From Methylomicrobium agile (GTDB lineage: Bacteria > Pseudomonadota > Gammaproteobacteria > Methylococcales > Methylomonadaceae), in the NCBI RefSeq assembly GCF_000733855.1, contig NZ_JPOJ01000001.1:1984001-2048000 (forward strand): 64,000 nucleotides of DNA, in the 5' to 3' direction. Position 1 is the first letter of the stretch, and every line of letters starts with the position of its first letter. Positions 11,814-22,100 of the stretch are shown piece by piece. The position numbers and the translations under genes are program-made. A model generated the notes under the pieces. It searched no databases, was not told the DNA's origin, and saw only the letters and a program-made list of their open reading frames with translations.

Positions 11814-11907
11814 CGATCGATTCTCCGGGGAAGACAAGGGCAATGAAGCGGTTGCGATTGTACCCTATTCGTCCCGATTTTTCCCCGCCCTCGCACTCGA
11901 AAGAGCT

Positions 11908-12290
11908 GTAGGGCGTTTTCGCGACAGCAAAACGCCAACAGGCTTCAAAGCAAGGCGGATTGCCTGACGGCGAATCCACCCTACCGGCGTTGTAGGGCGT
12001 TTTCGCGACAGCAAAACGCCAATTCCCTTCAAAGCAAGGCGGATTGCCTGACGGCGAATCCACCCTACCGGCATTGTAGGGCGTTTTCGCGACAGCAAAA
12101 CGCCAATTCCCTTCAAAGCAAGGCGGATTGCCTGACGGCGAATCCACCCTACCGGCATTGTAGGGCGTTTTCGCGATAGCAAAACGCCAATCCCCTTTAA
12201 AGCGCGGCGGATTACCTGATGGCGAATCCACCCTACCGGCATTGTAGGGCGTTTTCGCGATAGCAAAACGCCAATGGCCTTCAAAGTAGG
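11908..12290 (+). repeat. Tandem array of 84-bp palindromic units
   Basis: Units begin GTAGGGCGTTTTCG at 11908, 11992, 12076, 12160 and 12244, exactly 84 bases apart: four complete units and a truncated fifth that stops near 12287. Each is the dispersed 77-bp element plus a 7-base spacer (CGGCATT or close). The second and third units are nearly identical and the fourth is more diverged, so expansion was recent. Because 84 is a multiple of three, the minus strand shows repetitive 28-residue open frames with no sign of being genes. The array fills the space between the divergent macroglobulin and giant RTX genes. Confidence 0.95.
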
Positions 12291-12448: not shown

Positions 12449-12476
12449 TAGACAAAGATAAAACCTTAATTATAAT
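12449..12476 (+). promoter_or_regulatory. Likely sigma-70 promoter of the giant RTX gene
   Basis: TAGACA at 12449-12454 (five of six to TTGACA) and a perfect TATAAT at 12471-12476 are 16 bases apart. Transcription from here would leave a leader of about 140 bases before the ATG at 12627, in which I see no riboswitch I recognise. Confidence 0.6.
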
Positions 12477-12626: not shown

Positions 12627-13177
12627 ATGGCTATTTTCAGTTTTTCTAACGCGCAATCGATTAACACAGCAACTACCCCGGCAGGTGATGTCTATGAAGA
12701 TTCTGCCGCCCCCGCTACGCTGCTCGTCATCGACGCCCGCGTGCCTGACTATCAGAGCCTGCTCGCCGACCTACCCGCCAACGTCGCCGTGCGCATCGTC
12801 CAAGCCGATGAGTCCGGGTTGAACGCTATTGGCATGGAACTTGCTAATTTGGGGGGGGTAAGTTCGACGCCATCCACATCGTCAGCCACGGCAGCGCCGG
12901 CAGCCTGACGCTCGGCAGCGATACCCTCGACCTACAAAGCCTTGCCACGCAAGGCGACGCCCTGCAAACCTGGGCCGCCCATCTCACGGCGGATGCCGAC
13001 ATTCTTCTCTATGGCTGCGACATTGCCCAGGGCGAACAAGGCGATGCCTTCATCCGGCAACTCGCCCAACTCACCGGCGCCGACATTGCCGCCTCCACCA
13101 ATGCCACCGGCGACGCCGGCAAAGGCGGCGACTGGACGCTGGAAAGCCACACCGGCAACATCGAAGCCCCGAGCCTC
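12627..13177 (+). pseudogene. DUF4347 head of the giant protein, split by a frameshift
   Basis: From the ATG at 12627 (AGGAA at 12616-12620) the frame encodes LLVIDARVPDYQSLL and VRIVQADESGLNAIGMELANLGG, the first half of a DUF4347 domain. At eight consecutive G (12851-12858) the frame leaves the domain and ends at 12908. The other half (FDAIHIVSHGSAGSL, ADILLYGCDIAQG) continues in the frame of the downstream 3630-residue ORF, open from 12848. Between 12848 and 13178 that frame has no ATG, GTG or TTG, so the second half can be made only by frame restoration. A nine-G or six-G tract, or a -1 ribosomal slip, would join them into one protein of about 3800 residues. It could be a true mutation, a phase-variable OFF state or a base-calling error. 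Confidence 0.8.
12851..12858 (+). other. Homopolymer of eight G at the frameshift point
   Basis: The tract lies within codons for L-G-G of the DUF4347 domain. Eight G give an early stop at 12906-12908; one more G, or two fewer, restores a Gly-Lys-Phe-Asp-Ala reading that continues the domain. Such tracts are classical slipped-strand contingency sites, and also classical sequencing-error sites. Confidence 0.85.
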
Positions 13178-16100
13178 GTGGCGGACGACTGGTCGTATGT
13201 GCTCGCGGACGAGACAGTTCCGCTGATCGTGCCTGGCGCTACGCCGCTGAAGTTCAATAACGCCGAACTTGTCTTTGGTACCGACAAGCAAGAAGAAGCC
13301 GTTTACAAATACACCAACGTCGTTACGATCGACGGCGTGCAGATTGATGCCTATGTAAAGATTGAAAGTATTCAGGGCGCGGAGTTGACCTCGATCGATA
13401 ATAACAATCCTACAAACGCAACGGCTCCTGCGGGAATGACGACTGCGGATTTTTTTGCCCCTGAAATCAAAACGACGGCAGCCGATGGCGGCGTGACTTT
13501 TTCGATCACGTTCAAGGACACCGATGGCAATGTGCGCGCCTTGAGCGGCTTTTATAATAATTCCATCGATATTGATGCTGCCAGCGGCAATGTCAGAGAA
13601 TTTGTCGAGTACGGCGGTTTTAAAAGCTATACCGTCAATAATCCCACGGATTTGCAAATCAAGGCGGGAGCCGTCGGGACGGGGCGCATGCGTTTCGAAA
13701 GTGGAAATAATAAAAGTTATGATGGCTTGGTCGTCAACGATATAGGCCGCGTTCAGACGCAATTCGATACGGTCAGCACGTTTACCATCAAGATGGGGGC
13801 AACAGGAAACGTAGGCTCAACTGCGCGTCAGTACGGCTCCATCTTCGCATCGATGGCTTTTAGCAACCCGCTGACGACCGAGGCGCCCACCGTCGACGCG
13901 CTGCGCACCAACGACCTGACTCCCATCTTGACCGGCACCGTCGGCAATACCCTACTCGGTGAGAGCGAAGCCTTCAGCGTGAACGTGAATGGCAAGACCT
14001 ATGAGAAGGGAGATCCTGAACTCACGATTAATGACATGGTCTGGACGCTGGAAATTCCCGTGGGCGACGAATTGGCCAACGAGGATAAAACCTACGAAGT
14101 CAAGGCCCTGCGCGGAGGCGTCTTGTACGACCAAACGGCGAATGAACTGATCATCGACGTGACTCCTCCGACGGTCGTCGATGCGATCATTACAATGGAC
14201 AAGTCCTCGCTGAAGGCGGGGGACACGGCCCTGGTCACGATCCAGTTTAGCGAAGCGGTCAAGAATTTCGATAACGACGATCTGACGATCGAGGGCGGCA
14301 CGTTGACCGCTATCGTTTCCAGCGATGGCGGCATCACCTGGACGGCAACTTTTACGCCGACGGCCGATCTCGAAGACACCTCCAACGTCATTACGCTGAA
14401 CAACGCCGGCGTGACCGATCTCGCCGGCAATTCGGCCAACGGCAGCACGACAGCGTCGGACAACTATGTGATCGACACCAAGCCGCCGGTGATAGACCTC
14501 GATCCGTCGGACGCCTCGACGCTGAACCACTCGGCCAACGTGTTGCCGGGCGTGGCCGTCGGTATCGATGACAATGACGATGCGGCCAGTGTTATCGAAG
14601 GAAATGGAATTGCTTCCTTGGTCTTGACGGTGACGGGCTTGTCCGATGGGGATGACGAGTTGTTGTCCTTCGATGACGGCAGCTTCTATCGGGCGAACGG
14701 CAGCGCAGCCGTGGGCACGGTTACGGTTGGCGGCGTCTCGGTGCAGGTGACGGCCAATGGAACCTCTGGCGGGGCGAGCGGCACGTTCACCATCGTCAAG
14801 TCGGGAGGAGGCCACCTTACGGCAGCCGAAACCGCCAGCATTATTCATGCGTTGGAATATAAGAATGCTTCTACCACCCCGACAGAGGGCGATCGCAGCT
14901 TCAGCTTCACCGCGACGGATGCTGCCGGTAATGCCACCGCCAGCGCGGCGGTCAGCACAGTCACGGTCGACGACGACCGCGACATCACGGTGACCGGCGG
15001 CGGCACGTTCAACGAAGCCTCAACGTATGCGACGTTTACCGTGACTGCCGATGGCGAGGTGGGCGATGCGGTGTTGCTGGAGCTAGGCAACACGGCGGAC
15101 ACGGCCGACCGGGACGCGACGATCAGCGGCTTCGCGATCCACTATTCGACGAACGATGGCGAGGACTGGGAAACCTATACCTGGAATGGGGCATCGGGTA
15201 ACCGTCCGACGGTACCGAGCGGCGGCCAGATTCTGGTGCGCGTGGGCATCGGCACCGAACAGGACGATCTCTACGAAGGCGCGGAAACCTTCACGCTAAC
15301 GGCGAGCTATGCGACAAACAGCGCGAAAACCAGTACCGACACGGCGACCATCGTGGACGACAACACGGGCCGTATCGACGTCAATGGGGATGGCGACATC
15401 ACGGATGCCGACGAAGGCGAAGGACCGGGAACGCCGGGCGGCAGTTTAACCTTCGACGATGACCGGGCCATCACGGTGACCGGCGGCGGCACGTTCAACG
15501 AAGCATCGACCTACGCGACCTTCACGGTCGATGTGACCGGCGAGGCCGGCGACAAGGTGGAATTAACGTTGGGCAACACGGAAGACCCGGACGACCAGAA
15601 CGCGACGGTCAGCGGCTTCGCGCTCCAATATTCGACGAACGGCGGCACCTCCTGGACGACTTATTCGGGCAGCAGCCAACCGGAAGTGCCGGCCGGCGGC
15701 AGCGGCCAGATTCTGGTGCGCGTGGACATCACCTCCGAACAGGACGACCTCTACGAAGGCGCGGAAACCTTCACGCTGACGGCGAACTACGTTTCGAACC
15801 CGGACAACGGCGACACGGGCCTGGCCACGATCATTGACGACGGCACGGGGACGATTCTGGTGCCGACGGATCCGGCCGATCCCAGCAAGCCGCATGGTTC
15901 GAACCCGGCCGAAGGCAATGAGGGTCACGTTTCGGCGGACGACGACCGCAGCATAAACGTGAATGACATCACCGTCAACGAAGCGTCGAGCCACGCCGTG
16001 TTTACCGTAACCGGCACGCAAGGCCAGCATGTTGTCCTGGCGTTGACCGGGGGTACTGCTACCGGCGGCGGCATCGACTTCGGCAGCGGCGGTGCAGCGA

Positions 16101-19100
16101 ACCTGCAATATTGGAATGGCGAAACGTGGTCGAATTACACGGGGGCGATCGCCCTTCCGGATGGAGGCACCCTGCTGGTGCGTACGCCACTCGTCAACGA
16201 TAACATCTATGAAGGCAGCGAAACCTTCACCCTGACCGTCACTCCCGTGGGTGGCCACGCCGCTACCGGCACCGCCACCATCCAGGATGACGGCACCGGC
16301 ACCCTCTTCGACCCGGACACCGGCGAGGAAACCCCGACTGACCCGAGCGATGAAGCTTACATTACACGCGACGATGACCGCGCCGTGAGCGTGAACGGCA
16401 TCACCGTCAACGAAGCGTCGAGCCACGGCGTGTTTACCGTGACCGGCACGCAAGGCCAGCAGATCGTCCTGGCCCTGACCGATGGTACGGCCGTCAGCAA
16501 CGGTTCCAATCCCGACTTTGGTCCGGGCCTGCAATACTTCAATGGCACAACCTGGCAGACCTACACCGCCGGAACAGCCGTGACCATCGCCAATGCCGAC
16601 GGCACCTTGCTGGTACGCACGCCGCTCGTCAACGACAACACCTATGAAGGCAGCGAAACCTTCACGCTGACTGCCACTCCCGTGGGTGGCCAAGCCGCTA
16701 CCGGCACCGCCACCATCCAGGACGACGGCACCGGCACCCTCTTTGACCCCGACACCGGCGAAGAAACCCCGACTGACCCAAGCGATGAAGCTTACATTAC
16801 ACGCGACGACGACCGTGCCGTGAGCGTAAACGACATCACCGTCAACGAAGCGTCGAGCCACGGCGTATTCATCGTCGAAGGCGATGCCGGCAGAACGGTA
16901 ACGCTGGCGCTGACCGGCGGCACCGCCACCGGTCAGGCCACCGGCGGCGGCATCGACTTCGGCAGCGGCGGTGCCACGAACCTGCAATATTGGGATGGCG
17001 AAGCGTGGTCGAATTACACGGGGGCGATCGCCCTTCCGGACGGAGGCACCCTGCTGGTGCGCACGCCGCTCGTCAACGATAACACCTATGAAGGCAGCGA
17101 AACCTTCACGCTGACCGTCACCCCGGCGGGCGGCCAAGCCGTCACTGGCACCGCCACCATTCAGGACGACGGTACCGGCACTATCTTCAAGGACAACGGC
17201 ACGCCTGATAGCGAGGCTCTGAAGGACGACGACCGCGCCGTGAGCGTGAACGACATCGCCGTCAACGAAGCGTCGAGCCACGCCGTGTTCACCGTCGAAG
17301 GCGACGCCGGCAGAACGGTAACGCTGGCGCTGACCGGCGGCACCGCCACCGGTCAGGCCACCGGCGGCGGCATCGACTTCGGCAGCGGCGGTGCCACGAA
17401 CCTGCAATATTGGGATGGCGAAGCGTGGTCGAATTACACGGGTACGATCGCCCTTCCGGTCGGCGGCACCTTGCTGGTACGCACGCCGATCGTCAACGAC
17501 GATCTTTATGAAAGCAGCGAAACCTTCACCCTGACCGTCACCCCGGCGGGTGGCCAAGCCGTCACCGGCACCGCCACCATTCAGGACGACGGTACCGGCA
17601 CTATCTTCAAGGACAATGGCACACCCGATAGCGAGGCTCTGAAGGACGACGACCGCGCCGTGAGCGTGAACGACATCATCGTCAACGAAGCGTCGAGCCA
17701 CGCCGTGTTTACCGTGACCGGCACGCAAGGCCAACAGATCGTCCTGGCCCTGACCGATGGCACGGCCGTCAGCAGCGGTTCCAATCCCGACTTTGGTCCG
17801 GGCCTGCAATACTTCAATGGCACAACCTGGCAGAATTACGCAGCCGGAACAGCCGTGACCATCGCCAATGCCGACGCTACGCTGCTGGTGCGCACTCCGA
17901 TCGTCAACGATACTCTCAGCGAGAGCAGTGAAACCTTTACCCTCACCGCAACACCCATAGGCGGCCATGCAGCAATCGGCACGGCCACCATCAGGGACGA
18001 TGGCACAGGCGATATTTTTGACCCGGACACCGGCGCAAAAACCCCGGCCGACTCGAATACTCCGGGCTATATCCCGCGCGACAACGATCTGACCGTTACT
18101 AATCCGGTTGTCAACGAGGCGTCCGGCACGGCGGTGTTTGAAGTACACGCCACGCCGAACACGGCAATCACCCTGGCCTTGACTCCGGAGACAGCCGACG
18201 GAAGCGGTGTGGATTTCGGCAGCACCGGCAGCGTCAACTTGCAAGTATCGGTTGACGGCGGCCAGACCTGGACCAATTACACGGGCGGCACTGTTACCGT
18301 GCCCAACAACGGCACGGTGCTGGCGCGCACGCCGATCACCAACGATACAGTTTCCGACAACAACGAAACCTTCAGCCTGAATGTGACGCCGGGTAATGGC
18401 GGCGTTAGTGTCAAAGGTACGGCCACCATTAAGGACGACGGCACCGGCGATATCTTCAAGGACAACGGCACGCCCGATAGCGCGGCTCCGAAGGACGACG
18501 ACCGCGCCGTGAGCGTGAACGACATCACCGTCAACGAAGCGTCGAGCCACGGCGTGTTTACCGTGACCGGTACCCTGGGCCAGAGCATTACCCTGACACT
18601 GACCGACGGTACGGCCGTCAGCAGCGGTTCCAACCCCGACTACGGCCCTGGCCTACAATACTATGACGGCGAAACCTGGCAAACCTACACCGGCAGCCCG
18701 GTCGAGATCATCAATGCCGACGGCACCCTGCTGATACGCACGCCGATCATCGACGACAACACCTATGAAGGCAGCGAAACCTTCACCCTCACGGCAACGC
18801 CCATAGGCGGCCAAGCCGCCACCGGCACCGCCACCATCCAGGACAACGGCACCGGCGATATCTTCAAGGACGACGGCACGCCCGATAGCGCGGCTCCGAA
18901 GGACGACGACCGCGCCGTGAGCGTGAACGACATCACCGTCAACGAAGCGTCGAGCCACGCCGTGTTTACCGTGACCGGCACGCAAGGCCAGGAAATCACC
19001 CTGAGTTTGACGCCGGGCACGGCCACGGGCGGCGGCGTTGACTTCGGCAGCGCCAACCCCCTGCAAGTATCCATCGATGGCGGCGCCACCTGGACCGACT

Positions 19101-22100
19101 ACACAGGAGCGATCGCCCTTCCGACCGGCGGCACCCTGCTGGCACGCACGCCGATCGTCAACGACGACGTCTATGAAGGCAGCGAAACCTTCACGCTGAC
19201 CGTCACCCCGGCGGGTGGTCAAGCCGTCACCGGCACCGCCACCATCCAGGACGACGGCGCCGGCGATATCTTCAAGGACGACGGCACGCCCGACAGCGCG
19301 GCTCCGAAGGACGACGACCGCGCCGTGAGCGTGAACGACATTATTGTCAACGAAGCGTCGAGCCACGCCGTGTTTACCGTGACCGGCACGCAAGGCCAGG
19401 AAATCACCCTGAGTTTGACGCCGGGCACGGCCACGGGCGGCGGCGTTGACTTCGGCAGCGGCAACCCTCTGCAAGTATCCATCGATGGCGGCGCCACCTG
19501 GACCGACTACACAGGAGCGATCGCCCTTCCGACCGGCGGCACCCTGCTGGCACGCACGCCGATCGTCAACGACGACGTCTATGAAGGCAGCGAAACCTTC
19601 ACGCTGACCGTCACCCCGGCGGGTGGTCAAGCCGTCACCGGCACCGCCACCATCCAGGACGACGGCGCCGGCGATATCTTCAAGGACGACGGCACGCCCG
19701 ACAGCGCGGCTCCGAAGGACGACGACCGCGCCGTGAGCGTGAACGACATTATTGTCAATGAAGCGTCGAGCCACGCCGTGTTCACCGTGACCGGCACGCA
19801 AGGCCAGGAAATCACCCTGAGTTTGACGCCGGGCACGGCCACGGGCGGCGGCGTTGACTTCGGCAGCGCCAACCCTCTGCAAGTATCCATCGATGGCGGC
19901 GCCACCTGGACCGACTACACAGGAGCGATTGCCCTTCCGACCGGCGGCACCCTGCTGGCACGCACGCCGATCGTCAACGACGACGTCTATGAAGGCAGCG
20001 AAACCTTTACCCTGACCGTCACCCCGGCGGGTGGCCAAGCCGTCATCGGCACCGCCACCATCCAGGACGACGGCGCCGGCGATATCTTCAAGGACGACGG
20101 CACGCCCGACAGCGCGGCTCCGAAGGACGACGACCGCAGCATCACGGTGACCGGCGGCGGTACGTTCAACGAAGCTTCGACCTACGCGACCTTCACGGTC
20201 GATGTGACCGGCAAGGCCGGCGACAAGGTGGAATTGACGCTGGGCAACACGGCGGACGCGGCCGACCGGGACGCGACGGTCAGCGGCTTCGCGCTCCACT
20301 ATTCGACGAACGGCGGCACCTCCTGGACGACCTATTCGGGCAGCAGCCGGCCGGAAGTGCCGGCCGGCGGCAGCGGCCAGATTCTGGTGCGCGTGGACAT
20401 CACCTCCGAACAGGACGACCTCTACGAAGGCGCGGAAACCTTCACGCTGACGGCGAACTACGTTTCGAACCCGGACAACGGCGACACGGGCCTGGCCACG
20501 ATCGTTGACGACGGCACGGGGACGATTCTGGTGCCGACGGATCCGGCCGACCCCAGCAAGCCGCATGGTTCGAACCCGGCCGAAGGCAATGAGGGCCACG
20601 TTCCGGTGAACGACGACCGCGCCGTGAGCGTGAACGACATCACCGTCAACGAGGCGTCGAGCCACGCCGTGTTCACCGTGACCGGCACGCAAGGCCAGCC
20701 GGTCTCTCTGGCCCTGACCGACGGCACGGCCGTCGGCAGCGGCGCCAACCCCGACTTTGGTCCGGACCTGCAATACTATGACGGCGAAACTTGGCAGACT
20801 TACACCGGCAGTCCGGTCGAGATCATCAACACCGATGGCACCTTGCTGGTGCGCACGCCGATCATCGATGACGGCGTCACCGAAGGCAGCGAAACCTTCA
20901 CGCTGACCGTCACCCCGGCGGGCGGCCAAGCCGTCACCGGCACCGCCACCATCGAAGATAACGACGAGCAAACGGTCCTCAGCGTCGTTGCCGAAGACAA
21001 TGGCAATTCCGGACAAAACCCTGTCGACGACCGTGTCGTTGAAGGCGAGAGCTTGCGTTACGCCGTGACCCTGTCCGGCGCGAGCGCCATCCCGACCGAA
21101 CACAGCGTCGCCCTTGGCGGTACGGCCGACAGCAGCGACTATGCGGCGCGGAGCGGCTGGACTTTCAGCGGCGGCGTCGCCTGGAAAGACGCTAATTACA
21201 ATGCCGTCATCGTGCCGGAAGGCGTGACCAGTTTTACCATTACCATTGGCACCACCGATGACAGTCTCATCGAAGATGGGGAAACTTTGAGTCTGACCGT
21301 GGGCGGCGTGACTGGCGCCGGAACCATTCTCGACAACGATCTGCCGCTGCAGGTGAGCAACATCGAGGTGAACGAAGCCTCGCCGTTTGCCATCTTTACT
21401 GTCAGCGGTCTTGCCGGCCAGCCGGTTAGTTTGGCTTTGGCGCCTACCGGTAGTGGCGAGGGCCATGCCATCTTGGGCGTAGATACCGCCAATACCCCCA
21501 GCGGTTCGGCGTTGCAGTTTTTCGACGGTAACGCCTGGCAAGATTATGTTCCGGACAGCGTGACGAACTTTCCTGCAGGCGGTCTGTTGCTGGTTCGAAC
21601 CGGTATCGTCAATGACGATCCACCCATCTATGAAGGCCCGGAAACCTTCCAATTGATTGCCAGCAGCGGCGGCCGCGCGTTTACCGGAACGGCGACTTTG
21701 CTCGACGATGGCACGGGCACGATTTTTACCGGCTCGGTCAGTGCCGATACGCCGGTGACCAGTCAGAGCCATCTTGACGATGACCGGTTACTGAGAATCG
21801 ATAATGTGACGGTCAACGAGAAGTCTCCGTATGCGGTGTTCCGGGTTTCCGGCTCTACAGGACAACAGTTATCTCTCTCGTTGGAAGAAACCGCGGCGCG
21901 CTTGGCGGATGGAACCTTGCCCGAAGGCCACGCGGCCTTGGGTGACGATACGGGTACCCAACTGCAGTATTTCGATGGCGATCAATGGGCTGATTATGTG
22001 GGGTCGCCGGTGACTTATCCGGCCGGCAGCACCACACTGTTGGTGAGAGTCGCTATTCGAGATGACGAGGTGTTCGAGGGGCCGGAGTCGTTCAAACTGA

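Follow-up and report, generated by a model that had tools for sequence, protein, structure and literature searches.

The window analysed here, a 64-kb stretch of the Methylomicrobium agile genome, carries on its forward strand a giant gene that is interrupted by a tract of eight consecutive G residues (G8; window positions 12851-12858, corresponding to 1996851-1996858 of contig C1). Translation is expected to begin at an ATG at 12627, which is preceded by AGGAA, and a sigma-70-like promoter (TAGACA-16-TATAAT, 12449-12476, 11 of 12 matches to the consensus) is predicted 150 nt 5' of this codon by a consensus scan for which 0.4 chance sites would be expected. We also note an 84-bp tandem repeat of 4.5 copies with 94% matches (11907-12286) just 5' of this promoter. 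The upstream frame (12627-12905) encodes 93 amino acids, comprising the N-terminus and the first third of a DUF4347 domain (PF14252 profile positions 1-49, E 5.8e-6), before it reaches a stop at 12905. The remainder of the domain, including its SHG and GCD motifs, is found in the -1 frame at 12860-13180 (profile positions 46 or 47 to 152), and the whole domain is thereby matched across two frames (1-49 and 46-152), with both parts above the cut-off. From 12860 the downstream frame runs to 24070, a total of 3,736 codons and a stop, through the rest of DUF4347, Big_12, a long Calx-beta array and a C-terminal RTX repeat; 408-bp direct repeats that encode Calx-beta units occupy 15937-20137 (Tandem Repeats Finder).

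A previous sequence-only reading of this DNA had placed the change of frame within DUF4347 exactly at the G tract, and both the location of the tract and the division of the domain profile bear this out. The tract spans codons 75-78 and, at its assembled length, translation ends 47 nt downstream; with the break at G8 and the remainder open, it is a homopolymer that decides between a full-length and a truncated product. The same reading expected a restored protein of about 3800 residues, in agreement with the sum of 75 and 3,737 codons, and held that nothing else in the gene had decayed. Indeed the 11.2 kb 3' of the tract is fully open over its 3,736 codons and the RTX end is intact, from which we see no further disabling changes, and by calculation a neutral substitution of just 1% would already yield approximately 2.6 stops in this downstream part. 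The suggestion that the second half has no start codon of its own holds within the domain, where the downstream frame contains no ATG, GTG or TTG, and needs amending 3' of DUF4347, where the ORF listing gives a GTG (13178-13180) as the first possible start. Because this codon follows DUF4347, the assembled G8 allele should make only the 93-residue peptide.

The DUF4347 head and the loop at the tract

DUF4347 is seldom mentioned in the literature. The model of the domain from a relative (L067:698-1180; pLDDT 85) has a caspase-like fold, its best structural matches being a DUF4347 protein in 9qpe (Z 13.2) and a SAVED-CHAT protein (Z 9.9), with caspases and legumain matching at Z 7-8, the level where chance resemblance starts. 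DUF4347 is predicted to share the clan CD (caspase/CHAT-like) fold, albeit by a remote similarity and in the model of a relative, not of this protein. The SHG and GCD motifs are conserved in DUF4347 and are compatible with a His/Cys pair; together with the predicted fold they suggest a cysteine-peptidase-like head on these giant adhesins. The loop encoded by the tract immediately precedes a strand with SHG at its end. Because of this position, a closed (OFF) allele would be left without the putative catalytic residues, and the adhesive repeats and RTX C-terminus would be missing as well.

In 105 of 119 DUF4347 relatives the loop at the tract position is of a single, constant length. Three G residues give this family length exactly, and six or nine add one or two glycines; the G8 tract is therefore an expansion beyond it. 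The order of DUF4347, Ig-like domains, Calx-beta array and RTX end is the same as in giant RTX/Calx-beta type I secreted DUF4347 adhesins, and the protein would presumably be exported by type I secretion, function in adhesion and perhaps act as a peptidase. The focal gene and three counterparts from other genera differ from such adhesins in that a G run inside DUF4347, or at its end, interrupts them.

Long G runs in the M. agile genome

The G8 tract is the sole G or C run of at least seven in the 64-kb window, for which order-2 and order-3 Markov models predict 0.16-0.18 runs of at least eight. The complete genome (4.53 Mb in four contigs), which we read as that of a methanotroph from its two AMO-family genes (methane/ammonia monooxygenase subunit A), contains 19 distinct G runs of at least eight, every one of which was inspected. 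About nine of the 19 are intergenic and measure 8-14 residues. Six runs of eight lie in frame with a Pfam match extending across the run (in genes for a GGDEF-EAL protein, hemA, Lon, CobS, CobW and a TonB receptor), an IS630-type transposase gene with a run of at least eight is in frame by reading of the sequence, and approximately ten runs of seven in conserved genes, among them those for AspRS, FtsQ, FlhA, AcrB, an ABC transporter and a hydrogenase, are likewise in frame.

Only three long G runs break a frame, namely the G8 of the focal adhesin gene, a G11 in a cadherin-type gene and a G9 in a C5 DNA methyltransferase gene. Breaks were found in three of three accessory genes and in none of six conserved genes (Fisher p 0.012); these tallies are small and post hoc, and two of the three broken tracts, the G9 and the G11, exceed eight residues. 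The G11 (3822501-3822511) interrupts a second giant surface gene, with cadherin/Big repeats, of which the upstream frame has 168 codons and a hydrophobic, signal-peptide-like N-terminus and the downstream frame 2,885 open codons. Because a congener carries an intact ortholog of this gene, free of any G run at the corresponding site, the G11 tract is not common to the genus. The G9 (4172218-4172226) interrupts a phage-type C5 methyltransferase gene, with phrog_363 positions 9-245 matched in one frame and 260-315 in another. For the focal gene, the Big/Calx-beta/RTX architecture points to a surface product, and the other two broken genes likewise belong among those for surface products or DNA modification.

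At the G9 locus we also observed that a second methyltransferase family (phrog_1008/31772) matches both sides of the tract in other frames, and the region looks as if it were overprinted or could switch between C-termini.

Evidence on slippage in this lineage comes from a dispersed palindromic repeat with 17 copies in the genome (e.g., 1037132-1037164 and 2882951-2882985). Pure-G loops occur in four copies of this repeat, with lengths of 5, 5, 10 and 12, and the interrupted loops measure 4-9 nt in 12 of 13 cases, the remaining one being 23 nt long. Since the pure-G loops expand and nearly all of the interrupted loops are short, uninterrupted G runs do change length in this lineage. The genome encodes an intact MutS1, and for this reason switching may be modest in rate, or slow.

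DUF4347 genes in other genomes

DUF4347 is present in 91 of 237 genomes of the family, across many genera, and most of the genes are intact. Among approximately 119 domains read (with L119, L120 and L125 ending at contig ends), six loci have a G run of at least seven and four of the six lose their frame there, compared with about 5 of 113 domains that are broken without such a run (L069, L072 and L073 among them; Fisher p 2e-4). A proportion of about two thirds out of frame is what would be expected if the runs changed length freely and the frame were not under selection. One of the four breaks is the focal tract; the others are at a G7 in the same loop as the focal tract (G096), at a G7 at the LGGDW motif (G158) and at a G9, also at the LGGDW motif, which is followed downstream by a second break of opposite sign at a G7 (G009). 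The G runs of G120 and G193 are at least seven long and yet in frame. In the broken relatives the downstream parts have no stop for 600-1,180 codons, which is as far as each sequence was read. A further locus with a run of seven and a possible break (L195) was left out of the count of breaks, and candidate breaks at runs of seven in L190 and L200 were rejected as lying close to ordinary gene ends. In locus L071, the DUF4347 gene of another genus, the G9 (1757-1765) and G7 (1893-1899) breaks are of opposite sign, such that the frame far downstream again agrees with that of the start.

The sequence-only reading had recommended comparing the tract among close relatives. This comparison yielded breaks at G runs in three other genera, and the tract itself proved not to be conserved, being absent from the intact paralog and from most relatives. 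The one congener genome has no DUF4347 gene, a DNA-level search for orthologs across 61 genomes returned just short partial matches outside the gene, and a scan of genome contigs yielded two distant relatives only. The DUF4347 genes found on plasmids (in E. coli, Citrobacter, Phaeobacter, Azospirillum, Cupriavidus and others) have an intact domain with no long G run inside it. An annotated break in Azospirillum thermophilum was set aside, the run there consisting of just four G.

A candidate contingency tract and its alternatives

We consider it slightly better than an even prospect that the G8 is the slippage-prone, revertible tract of a candidate contingency locus, caught OFF. The tract lies in the gene for a protein of approximately 3,800 residues that ends in RTX repeats and bears an N-terminal, caspase-like DUF4347, and its length would set the frame, with multiples of three (6 or 9) giving an open gene and eight a closed one. 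Replication slippage would alter this length reversibly, such that a clonal population would hold both ON and OFF cells, and the assembly would have captured the OFF state. The reversibility, the switching rate, the adhesin function and any benefit are all elements that we infer.

The same break might instead be a recent frameshift that has in effect become fixed, at a mutational hotspot of an adhesin gene that the cell can do without; the gene would then be a young pseudogene, which arose perhaps in laboratory culture. This is a serious rival, if in our estimation a somewhat doubtful one. It accounts for the intact remainder of the gene and for the confinement of breaks to accessory genes, and neutral frameshifting at such a site would leave the same picture; the G runs of the non-coding repeat expand too, so slippage needs no selected role, and three of the relatives are broken without G runs. 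However, the longest G runs in the coding DNA of this genome break two genes for giant surface proteins and one for a methyltransferase, and another genus has a break in this very loop, which together would require more than one accident; the tract would in any case still be revertible.

Homopolymers are the commonest site of sequencing error and the frame is otherwise perfect, as would be the case if the true tract were in frame and the gene intact. Plain assembly error is nevertheless unlikely: the six other G/C runs of eight and about ten of seven that lie in conserved genes keep the frame, and since random errors should show no preference for surface and phage genes, the restriction of the breaks to accessory genes argues against them, subject to the difference in tract length mentioned above. 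We regard as highly improbable a programmed -1 ribosomal frameshift or transcriptional slippage, by which some full-length protein would be made and the product dosed rather than switched. A -1 slip had been proposed by the earlier reading as one means of restoring the protein, and a zero-frame heptamer, G GGG GGG, is indeed present before the break, where the shift required is -1. The RNA downstream, in contrast, folds no better than shuffled sequences (z = -0.83) and offers no stimulatory structure beyond chance; neither the position nor the length of the tract is conserved, most relatives are simply in frame, and the G11 surface gene would need the opposite shift.

Returning to the candidate contingency tract, the original interpretation of a phase-variable switch retains the break, its position and the lack of other decay, and phase variation itself gains indirect support from the identity of the three broken genes, two of them for giant surface proteins and one for a methyltransferase, set against housekeeping runs of equal length that are in frame. 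The expansion of non-coding G runs and the breaks in three other genera likewise support it indirectly. Phase variation is defined by a tract length that varies among the cells of a population, whereas our evidence comes from the one assembled genome of the species; we therefore describe the locus as one that works like a contingency locus.

Most known cases of phase variation through G tracts come from host-adapted bacteria, and adhesins are a classic phase-variable gene class. DNA methyltransferase genes are another such class, and in the poly-G contingency loci of Campylobacter and Neisseria it is the length of a 5' G tract in a surface-protein gene that sets the frame (PMC8355987, PMC5084427, PMC5700931). 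M. agile shares with these a 5' G tract in a surface gene and a second tract in a methyltransferase gene of the same genome, but is a free-living methanotroph rather than host-adapted, has an intact MutS1, and its switching is putative. Eight G is short for a contingency tract, the tracts of C. jejuni being mainly 9-10; in C. jejuni, which has no functional mismatch repair, G8 tracts are biased toward insertion (PMC8355987). A reversible truncation is also known for Listeria monocytogenes inlA, a surface-protein gene with a 5' poly-A homopolymer (PMC2831843), although there the tract is at the very start of the gene and was measured experimentally, whereas here a poly-G at codon 75 is read from sequence. 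This is, then, a known kind of switch for which we found no report in this gene family and organism group, and the titles and abstracts of the literature searched disclosed none on phase variation in methanotrophs.

If real, the switch would represent a stochastic control of adhesion in an environmental methane oxidiser, with relevance to biofilm formation and to escape from phages or predators, and giant adhesins that appear 'pseudogenised' in such genomes would often be switched off, not dead. More tentatively, and with rather more doubt than conviction, we speculate that free-living methanotrophs carry a few poly-G switchable genes (giant adhesins with a caspase-like head, a cadherin-type surface protein and a phage-type C5 methyltransferase), and that the DUF4347 region of the giant adhesins may be a convergent site for turning surface adhesion on and off, where tracts have been gained repeatedly across genera.

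The intact DUF4347 paralog of M. agile (L015/L036, near 3157070) has a C7 run between a Shine-Dalgarno-like AAGGA and its ATG; variation in the length of this run, if it occurs, could tune translation.
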